Below, piece by piece: positions 5,161-46,288 of a DNA stretch of 55,136 nt. The translations under genes were made by a program, and so were the position numbers. This stretch comes from Planctomycetota bacterium (GTDB lineage Bacteria > Planctomycetota > Planctomycetia > Pirellulales > Lacipirellulaceae), in contig QEVI01000010.1 in the NCBI GenBank assembly GCA_003576855.1, positions 1 through 55,136 of the forward strand, read 5' to 3'. The stretch's first letter is position 1. Each line of letters begins with the position of its first letter. The notes beneath the pieces are model-generated. The model was given only the letters and a program-made list of their open reading frames with translations, was not told where the DNA came from and searched no databases.

Positions 5161-5682
5161 GTGTCCGATCCCATTCGCATCAAACGATATCCCAATCGCC
5201 GGTTCTACGCGGGTCATACGAAAAGCTACGTCTCGATGGCCGACATCGAAGCGCTCATTCGCAATGGGGCAAACGTGGAAATCGTCGATAGCCAGACCGG
5301 CGAGGATCTGACGCGCCAACTCCTCGTGCAAATCATCGCGGAACGGCATCCCGAAAAGATGGCCATGTTCCCGACCGCAATGCTCCATGCCATGCTTCGG
5401 GCGAATGACGCCGTCGCCTCCTTTCTGCAGGATTACTTCCGCAATTCGCTGGCGTACCTCGACTATCTTCACCAGCACGGGGCGGCCGGTACGCTCACGC
5501 AGCCGGTACATTGGATGAAGGCCTGGCTCGACCGGTGGTCGCAGCCGGCTGACAAGGGCGATAGCGATTCACGTGAGCCGCGCGATGCCGCAGGCGACGC
5601 CGGACCTGCGCTGCTGGAGCGAATCAGCCAACTGGAAGACCGCATCGCCGAGTTGGAGCGGGATCGGGACCGCTCCGCGTAG
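5161..5682 (+). CDS. phaR: Polyhydroxyalkanoate synthesis regulator PhaR
   Basis: The N-terminal 60 residues match the PHB-accumulation regulatory DNA-binding domain: IRIKRYPNRRFY, then SYVSMADIEALI, GANVEIVDSQTGEDLT and QIIAE. The middle (MAMFPTAMLHAMLR to YFRNSLAYLDYL) fits the PHB-binding domain. The C-terminus is an acidic tail ending in a short coiled coil (LLERISQLEDRIAELERDRD). In the family, PhaR represses phasin and pha genes and leaves DNA when it binds nascent polymer. The start is GTG 5161, just before SDPIRIKRYPN; another in-frame GTG at 5119 would add 14 residues, and neither has a good ribosome binding site. A candidate target operator is at 8013-8038. Confidence 0.9.
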   Translation: MSDPIRIKRYPNRRFYAGHTKSYVSMADIEALIRNGANVEIVDSQTGEDLTRQLLVQIIAERHPEKMAMFPTAMLHAMLRANDAVASFLQDYFRNSLAYLDYLHQHGAAGTLTQPVHWMKAWLDRWSQPADKGDSDSREPRDAAGDAGPALLERISQLEDRIAELERDRDRSA

Positions 5683-5779: not shown

Positions 5780-6268
5780 TCAGTCGGACTCCAGCGGGAT
5801 TTCCGGCAGATGGACGCCGCTCAGTTCCAGAAGCTGCTGCCGCGTGGCGCTTAATCGCTGCCCCAGCACCGAGGCGGCGCGCCGCATGAACTCGAAGCCG
5901 AAATCGGTGTGCTGCTGGCAATACTTCAGCAAATCCTCGGCCCGAAAGACGACGGTCTTCAGCGGCGTCTCGGTGCGAGCGGTGTCAAATAGCCTGCTTC
6001 GCCCGATCAGCGGCGACCAGCCCAGCAGTTCGCCTTTGCTCACCATCGTGATCTGGCGGCAACTCGAGGCGTCGCAGATAGCCAGCGACACGCTTCCCTC
6101 GACGATGAAGTAAACGTCCTGGGCGCGGTCGAATTCTTCAAAGATCTTCGTGCGCGCCGGAAAGTCCACGAGGCGACACATCTTGGCCAAGGCGGCGAGA
6201 TGCTCATCGCCGACGCCGGTGAAGAAGTTGATGTTTCGCAGTAGTTCGATGGGCTCGTTATCCTGCAT
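5780..6268 (-). CDS. Stand-alone cyclic-nucleotide-binding-domain protein
   Basis: A 162-aa protein made almost entirely of one Crp-type cNMP-binding beta-barrel (residues about 8-125: LLRNINFFTGVGDEHLAALAK, ARTKIFEEFDRAQDVYFIVEGSVSL). The phosphate-binding cassette area reads SKGELLGWSPLIGRSRLFDTARTETP, which keeps the GE-x-x-G start and an R-x-T-A-like segment. About 35 helical residues follow, and there is no helix-turn-helix, so this is not a DNA-binding Crp on its own. It may sense a nucleotide or redox ligand and act through a partner. It is convergent with phaR and downstream of an SDR gene on the same strand. Confidence 0.85.
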   Translation of the reverse strand: MQDNEPIELLRNINFFTGVGDEHLAALAKMCRLVDFPARTKIFEEFDRAQDVYFIVEGSVSLAICDASSCRQITMVSKGELLGWSPLIGRSRLFDTARTETPLKTVVFRAEDLLKYCQQHTDFGFEFMRRAASVLGQRLSATRQQLLELSGVHLPEIPLESD

Positions 6269-6454: not shown

Positions 6455-7204
6455 CTACGCTTGCGGGTGCCAACCGGCGTCCGCCCACAATTGGCCGCTG
6501 ACCGCAGGATTGGTCACCATGAAGCAAATAGCGTCGGCGATCTCTTCGGGGCGAATCAGTCGGCGAAGCTGCGTGAATGGCAAGATGTTCTTCTCGATGT
6601 AATCCTCGCCGAGGCCCCGCACCATCGGCGTATCGGTGAACCCCGGATGGATGATGCCGCAGCGGACGCCGTGGAACATGGCCTCCTTGGTGAGCGTGGC
6701 GGTCGCTCCCTCCAGCCCCGCCTTGCTGACGGCGTAGGAAATCTGCCCCTTGTTGCCGAGCGATGACACCGAGCCGATGAACACGACCGCCCCTTGCACC
6801 TCTTCGTCGGGGTGCCACTGCTTGAGCCCCCGTTTGAAGCGATCCTCGGCGATGCGCGTTACCATTTCGATGGCCCAGTAGGTCGGCGCGACCAGGTTGA
6901 CCTCGATGACCTCGCGAAAGTTGTTGATGGGATAGGGCTGCGCTTTTCCGGTCGTCTTGTCGAGCCGCACCGCGAGCGCATCGCGGGTAATGCCGGCCGA
7001 GTCGTTCGTGGCGTCGCCGACCTTGACTTCCGCGACCTGTCGGCCTGCCGACGCGTTGATCTCATCGGCCAGGTTGTAGACCGTGTCGCGTCGGTCCACG
7101 AGTATGACGACCTTGGCGCCGCGCTTGGCGAACTCGCGAGCCGCAGCGCCGCCGATGCCGCTTCCTGCGCCGGTGACCAGCACCACCTGATCCTTGATAT
7201 TCAT
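6455..7204 (-). CDS. Short-chain dehydrogenase/reductase
   Basis: A 249-aa classical SDR. It has TGAGSGIGG at residues 11-19 for dinucleotide binding, and FIGSVSSLGNKGQISYAVSKAG carrying the catalytic Ser, Tyr and Lys. PGFTDTPMVRG and a C-terminus typical of the family follow. Compared with FabG types it has an insertion of about 20 residues near position 75 (ITRDALAVRLDKTTGKAQ). The start at 7204 is where the Rossmann fold begins; the upstream frame is open for 77 more codons but lacks coding character, and the ribosome binding site is poor. Its place between the CNBD protein and the phasin gene suggests acyl-CoA or hydroxyacyl metabolism, which is inference. Confidence 0.85.
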   Translation of the reverse strand: MNIKDQVVLVTGAGSGIGGAAAREFAKRGAKVVILVDRRDTVYNLADEINASAGRQVAEVKVGDATNDSAGITRDALAVRLDKTTGKAQPYPINNFREVIEVNLVAPTYWAIEMVTRIAEDRFKRGLKQWHPDEEVQGAVVFIGSVSSLGNKGQISYAVSKAGLEGATATLTKEAMFHGVRCGIIHPGFTDTPMVRGLGEDYIEKNILPFTQLRRLIRPEEIADAICFMVTNPAVSGQLWADAGWHPQA

Positions 7205-7456: not shown

Positions 7457-7900
7457 TTATGGACCGACCTTCGCCACCAGATCGGTCCACTTCGACACAG
7501 CGTTCTGCAGCTCTTGGACTTGCGTTTCGGCGACTTCGCGTACGCAATCCAGGGTCTTGCGGCAGAACTGCTCCGAACGACGCCGCAGTTCTTCAGGCGT
7601 CCCCGCATCGCTCACCGCCAGCGCTGCATCGAGCGATTCCAAGGCGGCGTCGTATTGGCGGTCGATGACTTCGCGGTGTTTGCGAGCCAGGCCGGAGACG
7701 GTTTCAATCCACTTCGACCGCAGTTGTTGCATGCGGCTCACGACCGCCGATTGCGGCGTCGGAACCGCCGGCCACAGGCTCGAGAACTGCGCCAGTATTT
7801 CTTGCTGCAGCTTCAAGCTGGTTTCGGCGGCTTTGCGGACGTTTTGGAAGACCTCCTCCAGGACCTCGCTGCCGGTGGCTTTGGGTTTCGCTTCTGACAT
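7457..7900 (-). CDS. Phasin-like PHA granule protein
   Basis: A 147-aa all-helical, amphipathic protein: [28 protein letters not shown], then long heptad stretches to [17 protein letters not shown]. Size, the [11 protein letters not shown]-type start and the pha context fit phasins, which coat PHA granules and limit their size; similarity is to the general pattern rather than a diagnostic motif. The start at 7900 has AGGAGA about 9 nt upstream. A good sigma70-type promoter (7980-8008) and a perfect palindrome (8013-8038) lie directly upstream, as expected of a PhaR-controlled phasin gene. Confidence 0.75.
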
Positions 7901-7979
7901 GGCTTTGGTCTCCTTGCAATGGTTGCCGGAGTCTCCAGACGCCTTGTCCGACGTTGAGCACTCCCGCTTGTTTGGGGTC

Positions 7980-8008
7980 ATTGTCACGCGCGTTGTAGTG
8001 CATGTCAA
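7980..8008 (-). promoter_or_regulatory. Sigma70-type promoter for the phasin gene
   Basis: Read on the minus strand: TTGACA (8008-8003), 17 bp, GACAAT (7985-7980). The -35 is perfect, the -10 matches four of six, and the spacing is optimal. Transcription would start near 7973, giving a leader of about 72 nt. Confidence 0.7.
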
Positions 8009-8012
8009 GCAT

Positions 8013-8038
8013 AAAAATGCTGCATTTGCAGCATTTTT
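8013..8038. promoter_or_regulatory. Candidate PhaR operator (perfect palindrome)
   Basis: Twelve-bp arms AAAAATGCTGCA and TGCAGCATTTTT with a TT centre. The core CTGC-ATTT-GCAG (8020-8031) fits the CTGC-N(3-4)-GCAG pattern described for a Paracoccus PhaR. The site ends 5 bp upstream of the phasin -35 box and about 60 bp from the carboxylase -10. With its flanking A and T runs it could also fold as a terminator, but it lies upstream of both neighbouring genes. Confidence 0.65.
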
Positions 8039-8096
8039 CCGCATGACTCCAAAATATGTGGCATTTAAGCAGTTCCGCGCCGCCGGCGATCGGGCT

Positions 8097-8102
8097 TATA
8101 AT
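8097..8102 (+). promoter_or_regulatory. Candidate -10 box for the carboxylase operon
   Basis: Perfect TATAAT 103 bases before the ATG at 8205. The best -35 is a weak TTCCGC, 18 bp upstream. Confidence 0.4.
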
Positions 8103-8204
8103 GCCGATCGACAGTGTTTTAATGCTGTAGATGCGCCTACAGGTTTCCCCACGGCGACTGAACGCCGCCAGGTCCTCCCACGATCGTTGCCTACCGAGGA
8201 GACC

Positions 8205-9737
8205 ATGCAACACATCGTTCGCCGGCTAGCCGAGAAACGTGCCGCCGCGGAACTTGGGGGCGGCCCGGAACGGATACGCGCCCAACACGCTAAGGGCAAG
8301 CTCACCGCTCGCGAGCGGATTGAACTGCTGCTCGATCCCGGCTCCTTCGAAGAGTGGGATATGTTCGTCGAGCACCGATGCGCAGACTTCGGCATGCACG
8401 AGCAAACGATCCCCGGCGATGGCGTGGTCACCGGTTACGGCACGGTCAATGGTCGCGTCGTGTTCGTCTTCAGCCAGGACTTCACCGTCTTTGGCGGGTC
8501 GCTGTCCGAGGCTCACGCCGAGAAGATCTGCAAGATTATGGACCACGCGATGAAGGTCGGCGCGCCGATCATCGGCCTGAACGATTCAGGCGGCGCGCGG
8601 ATACAGGAGGGCGTGGCGTCGCTGGCCGGTTACGCCAACGTGTTCCAGCGCAACGTGCTCGCGTCGGGGGTGGTTCCGCAAATCTCGCTCATTATGGGAC
8701 CGTGCGCCGGCGGCGCTGTGTACTCGCCGGCCATCACCGATTTCATTTTCATGGTCAAAGACAGCTCGTACATGTACGTCACGGGTCCCGACGTGGTGAA
8801 GACGGTGACGCACGAAACCGTCACCCACGAAGAACTGGGGGGCGCCGTGACCCACTCCACCAAATCCGGCGTCGCCGACCGCGCGTTCGACAACGACGTC
8901 GAGGCGCTGCTGATGCTGCGCCGGTTCATCAATTATCTGCCGGCGAACAATCGCGCGGCGCCCCCCCACCGGCCGACGCCGGACAGCGCGGATCGATCCG
9001 AGCCGTCGCTCGACACATTAGTCCCTGACAATCCCAACAAGCCTTACGACGTCAAAGAGGCGATACACAAGATCGTGGACGACGGGGACTTTTTCGAGCT
9101 TCAGCCGGACTTCGCGCGGAACATCGTCGTGGGGTTCGCCCGCATGGAAGGGCATCCCGTCGGCATTGTGGCGAACCAGCCGCTGGTGCTGGCCGGCTGT
9201 TTGGACATCAAGTCGGCGATCAAGGCGGCGCGGTTCGTCCGCTTCTGCGACGCGTTCAGCATTCCCATCATCACGCTGGTGGACGTCCCTGGATTCATGC
9301 CAGGCACGGCCCAGGAATACGGCGGCATCATTAAACACGGCGCCAAGCTGCTTTACGCCTACGCCGAGGCGACCGTTCCGAAGATCACCGTCATCACTCG
9401 CAAGGCGTATGGCGGCGCCTACGACGTGATGGCGTCGAAGCACCTGCGCGGCGACGTGAACCTGGCCTGGCCGAGCGCTGAAATCGCCGTGATGGGCCCC
9501 AAGGGCGCCGTCGAGATCATCTTTCGCAAGCATCGCGACGATCCCCAGCGCATCGCCGAGCTGACCGACGAGTACCGCGAAAAGTTCGCCAACCCGTTCG
9601 TGGCCCAACGGCGAGGGTATATCGACGACGTCATCATGCCGCGGTTCACCCGCCAGCGCGTTTGCCGCTCGCTGGCCATGCTCCGCGGGAAGAAGCTCGA
9701 AAACCCATGGCGAAAGCACGGCAATATTCCGCTGTAA
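8205..9737 (+). CDS. pccB: Acyl-CoA (propionyl-CoA) carboxylase, carboxyltransferase subunit
   Basis: A 510-aa carboxyltransferase that moves CO2 from carboxybiotin to an acyl-CoA. It has the two crotonase-like halves of the family. The N half carries [33 protein letters not shown] and [12 protein letters not shown] for acyl-CoA and oxyanion binding. The C half carries [40 protein letters not shown] and [15 protein letters not shown]. The C-terminus RKHGNIPL is typical of PccB-type rather than AccD-type proteins. The start has GAGGAG only 3 nt before the ATG. The biotin-carrying partner follows after 55 bp. Propionyl-CoA is the likely substrate; acetyl-CoA and other acyl groups remain possible. 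Confidence 0.92.
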
Positions 9738-9792: not shown

Positions 9793-11778
9793 GTGTTCCA
9801 GAAAATCTTGATTGCGAATCGCGGCGAGATCGCCTGCCGGGTGATCCGCACGGCGCACCGCATGGGCATCCGCACGGTCGCAGTCTACTCGGCGGCCGAC
9901 CGCGACGCCTTGCACGTAGCGATGGCGGACGAAGCCGTGTGCATCGGCCCGCCGCCTTCCGCCCAAAGCTACCTGGCGATCGACAACATCGTCCGCGCAT
10001 GCCGCGAGACGGGTGCGGAAGCCGTACATCCGGGGTACGGCTTCTTATCGGAAAACCCCGCGCTGGTCGAGCGATTGGAGGAGGCCGGCGTGGCCTTCAT
10101 CGGCCCCAGCCGCCGGTCGATCGCCGCGATGGGAGACAAAATCGCCTCGAAGAACCTGGCGCGCGACAGCGGCGTGAACACGATTCCCGGCTTTTCGGGC
10201 GTCATCCGCGACGGCGAACACGCGGTTCATGTGGCTCGCGAAATCGGCTACCCGGTGATGCTCAAGGCCAGCGCCGGCGGCGGCGGCAAAGGGATGCGCG
10301 TGGCCCGCAACGACGACGAGTGCCGCGAGGGCTTTGCAAGGGCCGCCGGCGAAGCGCGGACCAGTTTCGGCGACGATCGGTTGCTGATCGAACGTTACGT
10401 CGAGCAGCCCCGGCACATTGAGATCCAGGTGCTCGGCGATCGTCACGGCAACATCATTCACCTGGGCGAGCGCGAGTGCTCGCTCCAGCGGCGGCATCAG
10501 AAGGTCATCGAGGAGGCTCCCTCGCCGGCCCTCGATGCCTCGGTCCGACAGGCCATGGGCGCGCAGGCCGTCGCGCTGGCCAGGGCCGTGGATTACCTTT
10601 CGGCGGGAACGGTGGAGTTCATCGTCGACGCCGATCGTCGCTTCTATTTCCTGGAGATGAACACTCGGCTGCAAGTCGAGCATCCGGTCACGGAGTTCGT
10701 GACGGGGCTCGACCTGGTGGAGTTGATGATCCGCGTCGCGGCCGGCGAGCGGCTGCCGCTCGCGCAGCAAGACGTAAAGATCAGCGGTTGGGCGATGGAG
10801 GCCCGCGTTTACGCTGAAGACCCGTTTCGCAATTTCCTGCCGTCGGTGGGGCGGTTGGTTCGCTACCTGGCGCCGCCGGAAAGCCCGCACGTCCGCGTCG
10901 ACGCCGGCGTTTACGAAGGCGGCGAGGTCTCGATTTATTACGATCCCATGATCGCCAAGCTCATCACCTGCGGCGAGACCCGCGAACAGGCGCGGAGTCG
11001 GCTTCGCGACGCGCTCAATGAGTTCTATATCCGGGGCGTGTCGCACAACATCAGTTTCCTAGGGGCGCTGGTGGAGCATCCGCGGTTCGTCGCCGGCGAC
11101 ATCAGTACGACGCTCATCGCCGAGCAGTACCCCGATGGGTTTCACGCCTGCGACGCGGTTCACGACGATCCGCCGCTGCTGATCAGCGTGGCGGCGACGA
11201 TTCATCGGCGATATCGCGAGCGGGCGGCGAAAATCTCCGGCCAGCTTCCGGGGTATGAACCGCAAGTCGAGACGGATTGGGTCGTCATGGTCGGCGGCGA
11301 AAAGCACCATGTGAGCGTGACGCCGGCGCCAGTTGGGCACGACGTGACGTACCTAGGCGTTACGCGCCGCGTCGTCAGCGATTGGCAGTTCGGCAATCCG
11401 ATCTTCCGCGGAAAGGTCGACGGCCGTGAAATATGCATGCAGGTCGAGCGGCTTAATCTCGGTTATCGCCTCCTTCACTGGGGCGTCGTCGCCCATGTAA
11501 CGGTGCTGTCGTCGCGCGCGGCGGAGCTGCTGGCACGCATGCCGGAGAAGCGGCCGCCCGATATGTCGAAGTTCCTGCTGTCGCCCATGCCCGGGCTATT
11601 GGTACGCATCGCCGTCAATCCCGGCGACGAGGTGAAGGCGGGCCAGGAACTGGCGATCGTCGAGGCGATGAAGATGGAAAACCGGCTTTGTGCGGAACGC
11701 GACGGCAAGGTGAAGGAGATCCTCGCCGCGATGGGCGAAACGCTTTCGCTGGATCAGCCGATACTGGCCTTCGAGTGA
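9793..11778 (+). CDS. pccA: Acyl-CoA carboxylase alpha subunit: biotin carboxylase plus biotin carrier
   Basis: A 661-aa fusion. Residues 1-450 are biotin carboxylase: KILIANRGEIACRVIRTAHRMGI, the ATP-grasp glycine loop in KASAGGGGKGMRV, ERECSLQRRHQKVIEEAPS, EMNTRLQVEHPVTE. A linker domain follows. The C-terminus is a biotinyl domain with VEAMKMENR, where Lys near residue 627 takes biotin. GTG start at 9793 with GAGGA 7-8 nt upstream. It forms an operon with pccB and completes a two-gene propionyl/acetyl-CoA carboxylase. In the PHA context it may drain or supply C3 units (methylmalonyl-CoA route), but no mutase or epimerase gene is in view. Confidence 0.92.
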   Translation: MFQKILIANRGEIACRVIRTAHRMGIRTVAVYSAADRDALHVAMADEAVCIGPPPSAQSYLAIDNIVRACRETGAEAVHPGYGFLSENPALVERLEEAGVAFIGPSRRSIAAMGDKIASKNLARDSGVNTIPGFSGVIRDGEHAVHVAREIGYPVMLKASAGGGGKGMRVARNDDECREGFARAAGEARTSFGDDRLLIERYVEQPRHIEIQVLGDRHGNIIHLGERECSLQRRHQKVIEEAPSPALDASVRQAMGAQAVALARAVDYLSAGTVEFIVDADRRFYFLEMNTRLQVEHPVTEFVTGLDLVELMIRVAAGERLPLAQQDVKISGWAMEARVYAEDPFRNFLPSVGRLVRYLAPPESPHVRVDAGVYEGGEVSIYYDPMIAKLITCGETREQARSRLRDALNEFYIRGVSHNISFLGALVEHPRFVAGDISTTLIAEQYPDGFHACDAVHDDPPLLISVAATIHRRYRERAAKISGQLPGYEPQVETDWVVMVGGEKHHVSVTPAPVGHDVTYLGVTRRVVSDWQFGNPIFRGKVDGREICMQVERLNLGYRLLHWGVVAHVTVLSSRAAELLARMPEKRPPDMSKFLLSPMPGLLVRIAVNPGDEVKAGQELAIVEAMKMENRLCAERDGKVKEILAAMGETLSLDQPILAFE

Positions 11779-14509: not shown

Positions 14510-15607
14510 TCAGTCTGAGCGGTCGGCCAGCCACTGGTCGATGTGCGGCCAAGTCGTCTGCTCGGCGCCGCGGCCAGCCATGATGCCAATATGACCGCCG
14601 CGCACCCGGTGTACCGTCTTGTCCTCCGTGCCGACCAGCGACATGATCCGCTCGGACTGGCACGGCGGAGTGATATGGTCGGCCTCGGCGATGACATTCA
14701 GCAGACTAGCCCGCAGGTTGCTCAGCCGCACGGGTTCGCCGCGCAACCGCAGCGAGTTTTCAATGAGCGCGTTGCGTTTGTAAAAGTCGTTGATTAACTG
14801 CCTGTAGGCGGCGCCCGACATCGGGATGATGTCTCTCACCCAGGTGTTCATGGCATGCCAGGCGTCTACCTTGCTTTCGTCATCGAGGTTATCCCAAAGA
14901 TTAACGTAGGCGCCGACGAAATTCTCGACCGGCTTCAGCATCTTGGCGCCGGCGTCGATCAGTTCGCCGGGGACGTTGCCGAACGCTTCGACGATGGAAT
15001 CCGCGTTGAACGCCGGATCGCTCGTCCACCGGGCGAATCCACCGGCCGTTTTGTCGGAGAAATCGAGCGGTGCCGTCAGCAGAATTAAATTCTTTAGCCC
15101 CTCGTTCGGCCGCAGCGCCGCGTACAGCGTGGCGATAAGCGCCCCCAAACACCAGCCGAGCATGCTGAACTCCTCGACGCCGGCAAACGACTTGACCTTA
15201 CGCACGACGCGCGGCAGGTAGTCGAGCGTGTACTCGTCGAACGAAATGCTTTGGTCTTCAGGGCCGGGCACGCCCCAGTCGAGCAGGTAGACGTCGTAGC
15301 CCCGTTTGAGCATGTACTCGACGAAGCTGTGCCCCGGTCGCAGGTCGAGCACGTGCGGGCGATTCATAATGGCGAAGACCAGCAGCAGCGGCGTTTTATG
15401 TCGCTCGGCCTGCGGCCTAACGGGCGTATAGCGAAACAGCTTGGCCTTGTTCAGCGTCCAAATAAGTTGCTTAGGGGTCTGCGCGATTTTGGCGTCGGTG
15501 GTCAGCAGGCGGTTGAACTTCCGCACGTTTTCCGCCGCCTTATGCCAACTGGCGCAGACTTGATGGAACTGTTCCAAGCCATCGATGGTTTCGGGGGTCG
15601 TGGCCAT
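14510..15607 (-). CDS. phaC: Class III polyhydroxyalkanoate synthase, PhaC subunit
   Basis: A 365-aa alpha/beta hydrolase-fold enzyme that polymerises (R)-3-hydroxyacyl-CoA at the granule surface. The short length is that of class III enzymes. The lipase-like box reads GWCLGA with nucleophile Cys153. The Asp of the triad is in AEADHITPP (D310) and the His in RVRGGHIGIMAG (H339). NRPHVLDLRPGHSFVEYMLKRGYDVYLLDWG is the conserved early segment. CGGAG lies about 10 nt before the ATG. The PhaE-like partner gene ends 14 bp upstream, and PhaA/PhaB genes lie further upstream in the same direction. Confidence 0.95.
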   Translation of the reverse strand: MATTPETIDGLEQFHQVCASWHKAAENVRKFNRLLTTDAKIAQTPKQLIWTLNKAKLFRYTPVRPQAERHKTPLLLVFAIMNRPHVLDLRPGHSFVEYMLKRGYDVYLLDWGVPGPEDQSISFDEYTLDYLPRVVRKVKSFAGVEEFSMLGWCLGALIATLYAALRPNEGLKNLILLTAPLDFSDKTAGGFARWTSDPAFNADSIVEAFGNVPGELIDAGAKMLKPVENFVGAYVNLWDNLDDESKVDAWHAMNTWVRDIIPMSGAAYRQLINDFYKRNALIENSLRLRGEPVRLSNLRASLLNVIAEADHITPPCQSERIMSLVGTEDKTVHRVRGGHIGIMAGRGAEQTTWPHIDQWLADRSD

Positions 15608-15621
15608 GCCAGATAGCTCCG

Positions 15622-15984
15622 TTACTGAGATTCGCTGCGCTTGCGCCGCCCGGCGGTCGAGCGGGCCAGGGCGTCGAGCTTCGCTTCCATATCGTCGAGA
15701 CGCATTTCAATGTGGGTCAGTTGCTCGGCCAGGCGAACGATGTCGTCCCGGCTGGGCATGTTGCACGATGCCAAGGATTGCGTCATGGACGTCTCCATGA
15801 GCTTTCGAAGCGGCGCTGATGCGTTGAGGCTAGCGTCGAGCATCGCGCCGGTGGCGCCGGCGTACGCGTCCGTGTTCACGACGCCGGTCATCAATTTCGC
15901 CCAGTTCTCCAGCGTGGCGTCGCGCATGCCCTTAAGCATGCCGGTGGGGTCGAACGGATCGAATTGGTTGCCATTCTCGCTCAT
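15622..15984 (-). CDS. Small PhaE-like PHA synthase subunit
   Basis: A 120-aa helical protein directly before phaC. The C-terminal segment NMPSRDDIVRLAEQLTHIEMRLDDMEAKLDAL matches the end of class III PhaE subunits (PSR-x-D-I-x-x-L, then a coiled coil). Typical PhaE proteins are about 350 aa, so this one holds essentially a short N-terminal amphipathic part plus the conserved C-terminal helix. It could alternatively be called a phasin-family protein. An AAAGGA motif lies about 12 nt before the ATG. Pairing with PhaC is inferred from gene order and the motif. Confidence 0.72.
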   Translation of the reverse strand: MSENGNQFDPFDPTGMLKGMRDATLENWAKLMTGVVNTDAYAGATGAMLDASLNASAPLRKLMETSMTQSLASCNMPSRDDIVRLAEQLTHIEMRLDDMEAKLDALARSTAGRRKRSESQ

Positions 15985-28359: not shown

Positions 28360-30567
28360 TCAGCGCGTTCTCGAAACCGGCTTCACGGTTCCGGCGGGCG
28401 GCTGCGTCGCGACGCTCGACTGCCTTAGAGCAGGCGGCGTATTCCGCTCCGCCGGCGCGAGGCGCACGCGGGCGTCCAGCGCTATCGCTCCCCGCTCGTC
28501 AACCAGCAGCGGGTTGATATCCAGCTCCGTCACCTCCGGCAGTTCGACCGCCAGTCGCGCGACCTGAACCACCGCGTGAACCACGGCCCCGACGTCGGCT
28601 GGCGGCCGATTCCGGTAACCCGCCAGCAGCTTCGAGACGCGGGTTTCTCCAAGAAGTTCGGCCGCCTGCTGGGAGCTCAGCGGCGGCAATCCAACAGCTC
28701 GATCGGCAATGATCTCAGTTGCCGTGCCGCCTTGGCCGACGACGATCACCGGCCCGAACGTCTGATCGTTGTTGATGCCCACGATGATCTCATGGGCGTG
28801 CGGCCGGCGGACCATCGGCTGGACGGAAAAACCCTCGAGCCGCGCGGCGGGGCGGTCCTCTCGGAGGCGCTGCGCCATGGCGTCGGCCGCCCGTTTGACG
28901 GCGCCTGTGCCTTCCAGGTCGAGCGCCACCCCGCCTACGTCCGATTTATGCGTGACGTCCGGCGATACCACCTTCAGGGCGACGGGAAACCCCACTTGCT
29001 CGGCCACCCGCGCGGCCTCCTCGGCCGTGCGCGCAAACCGCGACTCAACCACGGGAACGCCGTAATACGTCAGCAGTTGTTTCGCGGCCCGTTCGTCGAG
29101 CCAGGCAATGCCCTTCGCCACGGCCTCGCACACCATGCGGCGTGCTGCCTCCGGAGGGACGGATACGCCTTCGGGGAATGTAGCAGACTGACGCACCTCC
29201 GACCGCAGCCGCTCGAAGGCCGAGAGCTGCAGAAACGCTTGCACTGCGTCCTCGGGCGATTCGAAACCCGGAATTCGCTCCGCGGCGAACAGCCGTCGCG
29301 CGGCGGCCACGGCGCTATGGCCGAGCCAGCACGTAAGAATCGGCCGATCAGCCGTCCGAATGAGAGGAATAAGCTGTTCGGCGATTTCGCGACCCTCCAC
29401 CAGCGCCGTGGGGCAGTGAAGCACCAAGACGCCATCGACGGCCGGATCGGCGAGGAGGGCCTTAAGGGCGGCGACATAGCGTTCGCCTGTCGCATCGCCA
29501 ATGATGTCCACGGGATTTCCCCGCGACCAGTTGCTGGGCAGTGCGTCGTCGAGCTGCCGGAGCGTGTGCGGCGAAAGCGTCGCCAGCCGGCCGCCGCCCA
29601 AGATTAGCGCGTCGGTGGCCAACACGCCCGGCCCGCCGCCGTTGGTGAGAATGGCCAACCGATCGCCGCGCGGCGGGTGAGACCGGGCGAGCGTTTCCAC
29701 GGCGTTGAATAGCCCCTCGATGCTGCCGACGCGAACGATGCCGGTCCGGCGAAACGCCGCGTCGTAAACGACGTCGACCCCCGCCAGCGCGCCCGTGTGC
29801 GAGGCGGCCGCCTGCGCGCCCTCGCGAGCTCGCCCCGCCTTGACCGCCACCACGGGCTTCTTGCAGGCCGCGCGCTGCGCCGCGGCCATGAACTGGCGGG
29901 CCTGCGTCACGGCCTCGACGTACAGAAGTATGGCCCGCGTGGCGCGGTCCTCGGCGAGGAAATCCAGCAGGTTTGCAAAACCGAGGTCCGCGCTGTTACC
30001 AAGCGACACGAAATGCGAAAAGCCGACGCCGCGGGGGCTGGCCCAATCGAGCACCGCAGTCGCCAGGGCGCCCGACTGCGTGACGAAACCGATGTCTCCC
30101 GGCAGCGCGCTTCCTGCGGCGAAACTGGCGTTCAGATTCGCGCCGGTCGAAATCAGCCCCAGGCAGTTAGGCCCCATCAGGCGCATCGAATAGGCGCGGG
30201 CCGTCTCGAGCACCGCCGTCTGCAGCGTCTGGCCCCGCCCATTCCGGCCTTGCTCCAGCCCCGCCGTCAGCACGATGGCCGCACGCGTACCAAGCCGACC
30301 GAGGGCGCCGACGACGCCGGGCGTCGCCGCAGGCGGCGTGCAAATCACCGCCAGATCGGGCGCCAGCGGCAACTGATTCACCTCTCGATACGCAAGCACC
30401 CCGCACACCGCTGCATACTTGGGGTTCACGGGCAACACGGGCCCGTTGAAACCGGAATCTAAGATGTTTTTCATCACCGTGCGGCCGACGCTGTGAAGTC
30501 GGCACGAGGCGCCGACGACGGCCACCGATTGCGGGCGAAAGAATCGTTCCCACGGAGGTTTGGTCAC
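28360..30567 (-). CDS. ADP-forming acetyl-CoA synthetase (alpha-beta fusion)
   Basis: A 735-aa fusion of CoA-binding, succinyl-CoA-synthetase-like and ATP-grasp domains. It makes ATP from acetyl-CoA (or another acyl-CoA), ADP and phosphate. The CoA-binding Rossmann start is PQSVAVVGASCRLHSVGRTVMKN, the phospho-His is His257 in AASHTGALAG, and the beta-part His is in VVSPDVTHKSDVGGVALDL. The ATP-grasp tail reads GINNDQTFGPVIVVGQGGTATEI and LDINPLLV. The GTG start at 30567 overlaps the upstream TGA (GTGA), so translation is coupled to the MaoC-phosphotransacylase gene. The enzyme gives substrate-level ATP from acetyl-CoA made by PFOR. Confidence 0.92.
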   Translation of the reverse strand: MTKPPWERFFRPQSVAVVGASCRLHSVGRTVMKNILDSGFNGPVLPVNPKYAAVCGVLAYREVNQLPLAPDLAVICTPPAATPGVVGALGRLGTRAAIVLTAGLEQGRNGRGQTLQTAVLETARAYSMRLMGPNCLGLISTGANLNASFAAGSALPGDIGFVTQSGALATAVLDWASPRGVGFSHFVSLGNSADLGFANLLDFLAEDRATRAILLYVEAVTQARQFMAAAQRAACKKPVVAVKAGRAREGAQAAASHTGALAGVDVVYDAAFRRTGIVRVGSIEGLFNAVETLARSHPPRGDRLAILTNGGGPGVLATDALILGGGRLATLSPHTLRQLDDALPSNWSRGNPVDIIGDATGERYVAALKALLADPAVDGVLVLHCPTALVEGREIAEQLIPLIRTADRPILTCWLGHSAVAAARRLFAAERIPGFESPEDAVQAFLQLSAFERLRSEVRQSATFPEGVSVPPEAARRMVCEAVAKGIAWLDERAAKQLLTYYGVPVVESRFARTAEEAARVAEQVGFPVALKVVSPDVTHKSDVGGVALDLEGTGAVKRAADAMAQRLREDRPAARLEGFSVQPMVRRPHAHEIIVGINNDQTFGPVIVVGQGGTATEIIADRAVGLPPLSSQQAAELLGETRVSKLLAGYRNRPPADVGAVVHAVVQVARLAVELPEVTELDINPLLVDERGAIALDARVRLAPAERNTPPALRQSSVATQPPAGTVKPVSRTR

Positions 30568-32096
30568 TTCGCCGCTCCGGTTTCGATCACGTTGGGCCCG
30601 ACGCTTCGCCGCGTTCCGCTGATGGCCGGCTCGGCGCCGAAATCGACCCGTCGAGTTGCCGCCAGCGCGTCCGCCGATTCGCTCGCCCGGGCCGGCGCCG
30701 CGCCCTCCGCTCGCGCCGGACGCGTGCCAACCAGCAGCGCCGCCAAGGCGCAGGCCGCCTCTCGCGTGCGAAGCGTATCGTCGATTCCCGGGCAAATGAT
30801 CGGCACGCGGCCGCCCAGGATGAGATCTGCCGATTGCGCGTCGACGAGATACTCCAACTGCTGGACCAACATTCGCCCCGCCTCCAGGTCCGGTACGATC
30901 AGAATGTCGGCCTTGCCGGCGACCGCAGACATCACGCCCTTGCGCCCGGCGGCCGCCTCCGACACGGCCGTGTCGAACGACATCGGCCCTTCCAACACCC
31001 CGCCGGTAATCTGCCGCCGCTGCGCCATCTTGCAAAGCGCGGCGGCGTGCATCGTCGATTCGAGCCGCGGCGACACCTGGTCGCTCGCCGCAAGTATCGC
31101 CACCTTCGGCTCGGCGATGCCGATGGCGTGCGCCAGTTCGATCGCGTTCTGCACGATGTCTCGTTTTTCGTCCAGCGTCGGGTACGGATGAAGTTCGGCG
31201 TCGGTCAGCAGCAACGGCCGCGGATACGTGGGCACATCGAGCACGCACACATGGCTCATGCAGCGCGAAGTCTGCAGTCCGCTATGAGGCGCCGCGACGG
31301 CCGCCATGAACTCGGCGCTGGCAAGAGCGCCCTTGATGAGCACGTCCACGTGACCGCCGCGGGCCAACGACACGCCCTTGGCCGCGGCCGCATGACTGTG
31401 TTCGGTCGCGACGATGTTCAGCCGGTCTGCGTCGAACCCGCCTGCCTCGGCCGCCGCTCGAATGCGGGCCCGCGGACCGACGAACGTCGGTATAATCAAC
31501 CCCCGCTTGGCCGCTTCCAAGCATCCTGCCAATGAGTCGATATCGACCGGGTGCACCACGGCCGCTCGCACGGCCGGTACGTTCTCCGCTCGCCTCATTA
31601 ACTCTCGGTATCGGGCGCTGCGGTCAAAGACGCGGACCTCGGGCAGCGCCATGCGAGGGCGACTCACCTTTTCCTTGGGCGCCAGCACGTCGGCGACGCC
31701 TTCGATCACGACGTCCCCGCTTTGGTTAACGCACTGGCAATCGAAGCGGATGCGTTTTTTCGCCGCGTCCTTCTCCGCCGCCCTCACGGTGACCCGAACA
31801 ACGTCGCCCACCGCCACCGGTTTGCGGAAGTGAAGCGACTGGCTCACATAGATCGCTCCCGGTCCCGGCAGTTCCGTCCCCAGTACGGTGGAGATCAGCG
31901 ACGCCCCCCACATGCCGTGGCCGATGACCCGGTGAAACATCTCGCTGCGCGCGAACTCCTCGTCCACGTGCGTGGGATTCACGTCGCCCGACACGGCGGC
32001 AAATAGGACGATGTCTTCCTTCGACAAGGTGCGCAGCAGCGTGGCGGAGTCGCCGACGTTGATCTCGTCAAAGGTCCGGTTTTGGATAAGGTCCAT
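30564..32096 (-). CDS. MaoC hydratase - phosphate acetyl/butyryltransferase fusion
   Basis: A 510-aa bifunctional protein. Residues about 5-145 form a MaoC hot-dog (R)-enoyl-CoA hydratase, with FAAVSGDVNPTHVDEEFA and FHRVIGHGMWGASLIST holding the Asp/His pair. Residues about 160-460 are a phosphotransacylase (GLIIPTFVGPRARIRAAAEAGG, DVLIKGALASAEFM, GGVLEGPMSFDTAVS, DLILGGRVPIICPG). The last 50 residues are disordered. CGGAGGAC precedes the ATG. The hydratase could supply (R)-3-hydroxyacyl-CoA for PHA from enoyl-CoA, and the transacylase makes acyl phosphate. No acetate or butyrate kinase gene is visible in the window. Confidence 0.92.
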   Translation of the reverse strand: MDLIQNRTFDEINVGDSATLLRTLSKEDIVLFAAVSGDVNPTHVDEEFARSEMFHRVIGHGMWGASLISTVLGTELPGPGAIYVSQSLHFRKPVAVGDVVRVTVRAAEKDAAKKRIRFDCQCVNQSGDVVIEGVADVLAPKEKVSRPRMALPEVRVFDRSARYRELMRRAENVPAVRAAVVHPVDIDSLAGCLEAAKRGLIIPTFVGPRARIRAAAEAGGFDADRLNIVATEHSHAAAAKGVSLARGGHVDVLIKGALASAEFMAAVAAPHSGLQTSRCMSHVCVLDVPTYPRPLLLTDAELHPYPTLDEKRDIVQNAIELAHAIGIAEPKVAILAASDQVSPRLESTMHAAALCKMAQRRQITGGVLEGPMSFDTAVSEAAAGRKGVMSAVAGKADILIVPDLEAGRMLVQQLEYLVDAQSADLILGGRVPIICPGIDDTLRTREAACALAALLVGTRPARAEGAAPARASESADALAATRRVDFGAEPAISGTRRSVGPNVIETGAAK

Positions 32097-32893
32097 CGCG
32101 AGGTCCTCCGGCGCCGAACCGCCCCGGCCGAACGCCGCTAACGCAACGCCAGCAATCTGTCTTGGGGGCCGCGGGGCGCTCGCCGTCTGCCGGCACGCGT
32201 ACGGACGGCGAGCGCCCCGCTCACCCTCTTAGCGCAGTTGCAGCAAAGGCTATACCGGACGCTGCCAGTCCCGCGCCCGCCAGGCGCCGCACATTCCACG
32301 GAGCCGACGCAGTAAGTCGTTGCGACGCTTCCACTATGGGCGCGTAAGTCGGTTCTTTTATTCAAACCCAGCGGGCGTGCGGCGGGGCAAGCCTGGTTAG
32401 AACGGGAGACCGGCCGACTCCCCTTCGGGCGCGCCGGAGTGTTCTATTGCGCGCTCGCGTGAGCGAAATGGCACATCCAGCCGCCGTTGCGCTGGGGCCG
32501 CGGCTCGCCCGGCGACGTGGGCGGTGTAACGCCAGTTCGACGCCCGAAGGGTCGGCATTGGCTTCGCCAAAGCACGGAACGTCGACGCATGTCGAAACCT
32601 GAGCGGCGCCTATGGAACTAGCAGAGCAACATGCCGTGCCTCAGCTTCGTCGCCGCACGGTCCGGTTTTCGGCGCTCCTGCGCGGGCGCACCCACACGCC
32701 GATTCGGCACTGCGGTTGCTCTTATAGTCAACGGGCGAGTCACGGCAATGGGCTTAGCCGCGCTTTTTCTTGAACCAGCGGCGATCCACGTAGAGCAACT
32801 GCAACGCCGCTCGTCCGGCTAATCGAACGGTTCTCCAATCCAGCCCTAGCGCGGCAGGGGCAGTCGCCCGCGCGCATCGAAGGGAGCACTGCT
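32097..32893. other. Long divergent spacer with a strong hairpin
   Basis: No supported gene. The hairpin at 32171-32220 lies 75 bases before the MaoC-phosphotransacylase start. The remaining 670 bases show no convincing promoter or frame. Confidence 0.5.
32171..32220. repeat. 17-bp perfect inverted repeat
   Basis: Arms GCGGGGCGCTCGCCGTC and GACGGCGAGCGCCCCGC with a 16-nt loop. Very stable if transcribed. There is no T-run, so it is a leader structure, attenuator or processing element rather than an ordinary terminator. Confidence 0.7.
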
Positions 32894-46245: not shown

Positions 46246-46288
46246 AAAAAAACACGTGCGCGGCTCAACGGACGAGCCGCGCACGTGT
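46246..46288 (-). terminator. Rho-independent terminator after the double-PDZ gene
   Basis: On the minus strand, a perfect 15-bp stem (ACACGTGCGCGGCTC with its complement, 46252-46288) with a 7-nt loop is followed by seven T residues. It lies 62 bases past the stop at 46351. A canonical terminator. Confidence 0.9.

Follow-up and report, generated by a model that had tools for sequence, protein, structure and literature searches.

The window (i.e. the whole stretch of 55,136 nucleotides that was analysed) carries genes for a phasin, the regulator PhaR, an SDR reductase, a two-subunit acyl-CoA carboxylase and a PHA synthase (Table 1). The reductase gene is probably in the same operon as the phasin. 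A protein with a cNMP domain is encoded inside the cluster, at 5780-6268. A perfect palindrome is located between the divergent phasin gene (minus strand) and carboxylase operon (8205 onward). The original prediction placed a PhaR gene 2.3 kb from the palindrome, and the PHB_acc_N protein encoded at this distance (5161-5682, plus strand) bears this out. The family of the window phasin is kept in relatives, as judged by the family profile. We note that the protein encoded by the small partner gene of phaC (15622-15984, minus strand) resembles the Bacillus-type synthase subunit that is likewise named PhaR; the shared name could mislead annotation.

Table 1. Positions of the genes and regulatory features in the window.
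Feature	Position	Strand	Basis and remarks
phaR, regulator with PHB_acc_N domain	5161-5682	+	PF07879, 77.8 bits
SDR reductase (PhaB/FabG-like), 3′ of phasin	6455-7204	-	Domain matches
Phasin gene, proposed target	7457-7900	-	147 aa, ribosome site AAGGAGA; Phasin_2 E=8e-4, under Pfam cut-off
Predicted phasin -10, GACAAT	7980-7985	-	Promoter scan; 4/6 consensus
Predicted phasin -35, TTGACA	8003-8008	-	Promoter scan; perfect hexamer
Perfect 12+12 palindrome, proposed PhaR operator	8013-8038	none	Repeat search, shuffles, genome profile
Conserved 22-bp operator core AAATGCTGCATTTGCAGCATTT	8015-8036	none	TGCA-TT-TGCA, AT-rich arms
Weak second operator-like site TAATGCTGTAGATGCGCCTACA	8120-8141	none	5.3 bits, p=0.013
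Carboxyltransferase subunit of acyl-CoA carboxylase, divergent from phasin	8205-9737	+	PF01039
Biotin carboxylase / biotin carrier subunit of carboxylase	9793-11778	+	Domain matches
PHA synthase phaC (class III-like)	14510-15607	-	TIGR01836, E=7e-100
Small phaC partner gene	15622-15984	-	TIGR02132, E=2e-7, under cut-off

The sequence of the palindrome is AAAAATGCTGCA-TT-TGCAGCATTTTT, in which two 12-base arms form a perfect inverted repeat (12+12) around 2 nt; the core is CTGC-ATTT-GCAG. This was confirmed on re-reading the sequence, and no perfect 12+12 repeat was generated in 3000 dinucleotide shuffles of the surrounding region (7900-8204). Equivalent shuffling of the whole window gave a mean of 0.13 perfect 12+12 repeats with a spacer of 0-8. 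Scanning the window over the same range of spacers revealed one other perfect 12+12 inverted repeat, at 46255, with a 7-base spacer.

On the phasin strand the sequence TTGACA-N17-GACAAT starts 4 nt beyond the palindrome. The latter is therefore directly upstream of a predicted phasin promoter with a perfect -35 (TTGACA, 8008-8003), as had been proposed. The geometry is retained in relatives. In all 13 promoters aligned the operator centre precedes the first base of the -35 by 15-17 bp, i.e. adjoining the -35 as in the proteobacterial consensus, and the -35 starts with TTGAC in 11 of these. Measured from the predicted transcription start, the operator centre would lie near -52.

The weak second site is 105 bp from the palindrome. 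It is the counterpart of a second site that many relatives have 78-80 or 99-102 bp farther upstream, at a divergent phaR or carboxylase gene. The twin operators are 99-102 bp apart in L081, L085, L086, L089, L152 and L153, and 78-80 bp apart in L087 and L093, so that the two classes differ by about two helical turns. Such distances would be compatible with a PhaR tetramer looping the DNA; equally, the two operators may act independently, each on one of the divergent genes.

A search of 247 genomes from the order Pirellulales (Planctomycetota) found PhaR in 19. The profile of the window phasin family also made strong matches in 19 of the 247. phaR and phasin occur together in 16 genomes (Fisher p = 2e-19, with kinship ignored), and in most of these they are closely clustered with the SDR reductase and the two-subunit carboxylase. 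The same family group includes a named species, Bythopirellula polymerisocia Pla144. Most of the relatives are metagenome-assembled, and since the genomes are related the counts are not independent.

A 22-bp matrix was built from the sites of ten stand-alone phasins, omitting the genome's own site and that of a same-genus partner when scoring. By this leave-one-out matrix the window operator scores ~30 bits, with a runner-up in the window of 14.8. A matching site was found in all 20 PhaR-positive genomes for which a phasin-family promoter was in hand, each with p<=0.001 against shuffles. Ten of these are the genomes of the stand-alone phasins, scored leave-one-out. The other ten had no part in building the matrix: five are represented by phasin-SDR fusion promoters, and the rest are L152, L156, L158 (likewise a fusion), G453 and G599. 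In G453 and G599 phaR is on a different contig, yet near-perfect palindromes precede the SDR-phasin operon (TTATGCTGCGAATGCAGCATTA and AAATGCTGCGATCGCAGCATTT respectively). L153, a genome outside the matrix, also carries a significant site, and was left out of the 20 because no phaR is visible on the short contig. By contrast, there is no site within 300 bases of the phasins of the three genomes in which PhaR was not detected (G492, G520 and G394; each at least 93% complete; PhaR could hide in the gaps). The predicted conservation upstream of phasin in relatives that carry phaR was thus observed. The correlation of the site with PhaR (20/20 with, 0/3 without) is of moderate strength, given the draft genomes and just three cases lacking PhaR.

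The conserved 22-bp site has the pattern AAATGCTGCA-NN-TGCAGCATTT, in which G8, C9, G14 and C15 are invariant over 27 sites. YGCR-N2-YGCR occurs in the upstream regions of 11 of 15 stand-alone phasins from PhaR-bearing genomes (18 sites), where 2.3 regions are expected from shuffles. Half-site spacers of 4, 6 and 7 were found in one of these regions each, and spacers of 0, 1, 3 and 5 in none of the 15. Perfect palindromy, the feature described in the original prediction, is not what is conserved in the relatives; TGCR-NN-YGCA with AT-rich arms is.

In six genomes the stand-alone phasin has no site and a phasin-SDR fusion carries one. In such a fusion a phasin-like N-terminal domain is joined to an SDR (PhaB/FabG-like) in one open frame (e.g. 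L066:8312-9520), and further examples were found in L082, L084, L087, L088, L091, L156 and L158. The phasin profile matches the N-termini of the fusions down to E=2e-18. It is the fusion genes that bear the PhaR-type site; in most of the same genomes the phasin encoded separately is without one.

Further sites were sought in the 5.1-Mb genome. With a sequence profile of the operator, whose training set included the window's own site, the palindrome was the sole match at E<=10. In other genomes the profile gave matches near E=0.3-2, some of them in genomes lacking PhaR, so that weaker members of a regulon cannot be called. A degenerate pattern was also tried on the genome, which is GC-rich, and was dropped because a reversed control pattern gave more matches than the pattern itself. 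Within the window the matrix scan found no operator-type site at the promoter of the synthase subunit or of phaR. Autoregulation is therefore not seen here, while relatives with a divergent phaR do have sites. A second-tier operator-like site of 11-12 bits is present at 32227-32248, ~131 bp upstream of a gene (30564-32096, minus strand) whose product resembles a MaoC hydratase/phosphate acyltransferase. A GC-rich inverted repeat, possibly a terminator, adjoins the site.

The inverted TGCR and YGCA half-sites of the proteobacterial consensus are present in the window (as TGCA-TT-TGCA). The single-base centre of the consensus (TGC-N3-GCA) is not, as there are two bases at the centre in both the window and its relatives. 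The PhaR operators of Ralstonia eutropha phaP1 are YTKNTGCRNYGCANMAR, with a 'central single nucleotide spacer' (PMC12849132). The site is TGCRNYGCASMA in Bradyrhizobium diazoefficiens (PMC6201568), TGNTGCN3GCAA for PhaR/PhbF of Herbaspirillum seropedicae (PMC3206438) and CTGCN3GCAG in R. sphaeroides (as cited in PMC12542648), and the motif of Sinorhizobium meliloti PhaR (AniA) has a one-base centre (PMC12542648). Every proteobacterial site compared, all drawn from open-access papers, thus has a one-base centre (TGCR-N-YGCA). Three bases separate TGC and GCA in B. diazoefficiens and H. seropedicae, whereas there are four in the planctomycete sites.

R. eutropha PhaR occupies one site immediately upstream of the phaP1 -35 and another around the start, and represses phaP1 (PMC12849132). 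The window is similar in its inverted TGCR/YGCA half-sites, in having one site directly upstream of the phasin -35, and in the phasin as target. It differs in having a two-base rather than a single-base centre, and in that no second site was found at the phasin start. The PhaR site of B. diazoefficiens precedes the phaP1 -35 by 6 bp (PMC6201568). The window shares with this organism and H. seropedicae a TGC...GCA core at phasin promoters; in those systems sites are also present at regulator promoters (PMC6201568, PMC3206438). S. meliloti PhaR binds sites with the same half-site as here, ATGCTGCA, and with practically identical AT-rich arms (PMC12542648); an example, AGATGCTGCACTGCAGCATTA, is efficiently bound by the protein (PMC12542648). 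The S. meliloti regulon comprises tens of genes (PMC12542648), whereas here the genome profile resolves the phasin promoter only.

The window PhaR scores 77.8 bits with PF07879 (cut-off 25), and falls under the equivalog cut-off of NCBIfam TIGR01848 (85 bits vs 109.45). By these profile scores it is a divergent member of the family and not a close equivalog. The spacing associated with PhaR was analysed without presetting the spacer, taking the best palindromic site with any spacer of 0-5 within 2.5 kb of phaR. In the PhaR clade that includes the window protein, a spacer of two was best for 19 of 25 members. Elsewhere in the phylum a spacer of one leads (12.8 of 28, ties being shared), with 2.4 of 28 for a spacer of two, and in the sister lineage a spacer of one leads in three of five. 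In a maximum-likelihood tree of 57 PhaR sequences, the 21 with a two-base site are all contained in a single clade of 25 members (support 99/97). Among the labelled rows one change of spacing suffices. The labels were partly assigned by eye; the mechanical count of spacing agrees. The comparison thus adds to the original proposal a two-base operator spacing that probably extends across the PhaR clade.

A site with a one-base centre is found near phaR in other PhaR lineages of the phylum (L045, L046, L049, L052, L055, L057, L070 and L073-L080). These sites resemble TAACGCR-N-YGCGTTA or TGACGCA-G-TGCGTCA.

Searches turned up no PhaR relative of solved structure. The predicted structure of PhaR has an N-terminal beta-beta-alpha-beta-alpha arrangement; with a mean pLDDT of 67 and no match in the PDB at E<=0.001 it does not explain the spacing.

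We conclude that the palindrome is very probably the operator at which PhaR, the product of the gene 2.3 kb away, exerts control over the phasin promoter. This reading of the site, already put forward in the original prediction, is supported by its occurrence in 20/20 PhaR-positive genomes, its fixed distance from the -35 and the co-occurrence of phasin and PhaR. Recognition of the site by PhaR is strongly supported by these comparisons. Repression of the phasin promoter by PhaR is moderately supported, by the position of the site, and titration of PhaR by polymer is suggested by homology only. Taking the known PhaR-phasin circuit as a model (PMC9049629, PMC12849132), PhaR, as a dimer or as one half of a tetramer, would grip both TGCR half-sites around -52 from the transcription start. 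With no polymer in the cell, free PhaR would keep RNA polymerase off the phasin promoter. On formation of PHA granules PhaR would be drawn onto the polymer, and phasin would be made and coat the granule. Surplus phasin would then displace PhaR from the granule, so that the promoter is shut again. The comparison of genomes further suggests a wider PhaR-controlled module in planctomycetes, comprising the phasin, the phasin-SDR fusion, the SDR and often phaR.

We have considered other explanations of the site. PhaR might bind there and activate the phasin promoter, or also regulate the divergent carboxylase, rather than be a simple repressor of the phasin. A centre near -52, upstream of the -35, is where activators can sit too, and R. 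eutropha PhaR activates phaP3 (PMC12849132). The weak second site lies in the carboxylase promoter region, and the second sites of relatives are at divergent phaR or carboxylase genes. The place directly upstream of the -35 is, however, equal to that of BS1 in the repressed phaP1 of R. eutropha (PMC12849132), and the -35 hexamers are close to consensus, which befits a repressed rather than an activator-dependent promoter; we regard this alternative as unlikely. It is less likely still that the protein recognising the site is a different dimeric regulator, one of storage or acyl-CoA metabolism that accompanies the cluster. The cNMP-domain protein would be a candidate, the centre is one base off that of published PhaR sites, and binding of PhaR is deduced from sequence. 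Yet the half-site matches that known from characterised PhaR sites, the presence of the site tracks phaR even where the two are on separate contigs, and in other PhaR lineages of the phylum the one-base form occurs near phaR.

The window copy could also fold as RNA, with a free energy of -13.2 kcal/mol and runs of A and T on both sides. But the site is between divergent promoters, so neither neighbour transcribes into it, and a terminator scan found none there. The sites of three out of four relatives fold no better than shuffles, and the fourth modestly better. A terminator would have a conserved stem-loop 3′ of a gene with a T run, which is not what was found. With the sequence conserved and the fold not, this looks like a protein-bound DNA site, and we reject a terminator or RNA hairpin as highly improbable. 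The least credible explanation is that the palindrome arose by chance. While the window does have another perfect 12+12 repeat, with its 7-base spacer, the failure of local shuffles to generate one and the conservation of sequence, place and spacing in relatives lead us to dismiss this.

Returning to PhaR as the protein bound at the palindrome, it seems reasonably probable that its operator spacing changed once on the tree sampled. One clade in the Planctomycetota would use TGCR-NN-YGCA, while its sister and the other PhaRs of the phylum and of proteobacteria would use TGCR-N-YGCA. There would then be two operator codes in one granule-sensing family. In the set of genes under PhaR control, the coat protein would in part be fused to a monomer-supplying reductase.

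If these conclusions are correct, the PhaR-phasin feedback loop that has been characterised in proteobacteria reaches the planctomycetes, including Bythopirellula polymerisocia, and the spacing of operator half-sites can change by one base along with the clade of PhaR. Related clades with different spacing would then provide a direct handle on the reading of DNA by PhaR, through swaps of PhaR and operator between one- and two-base centres.
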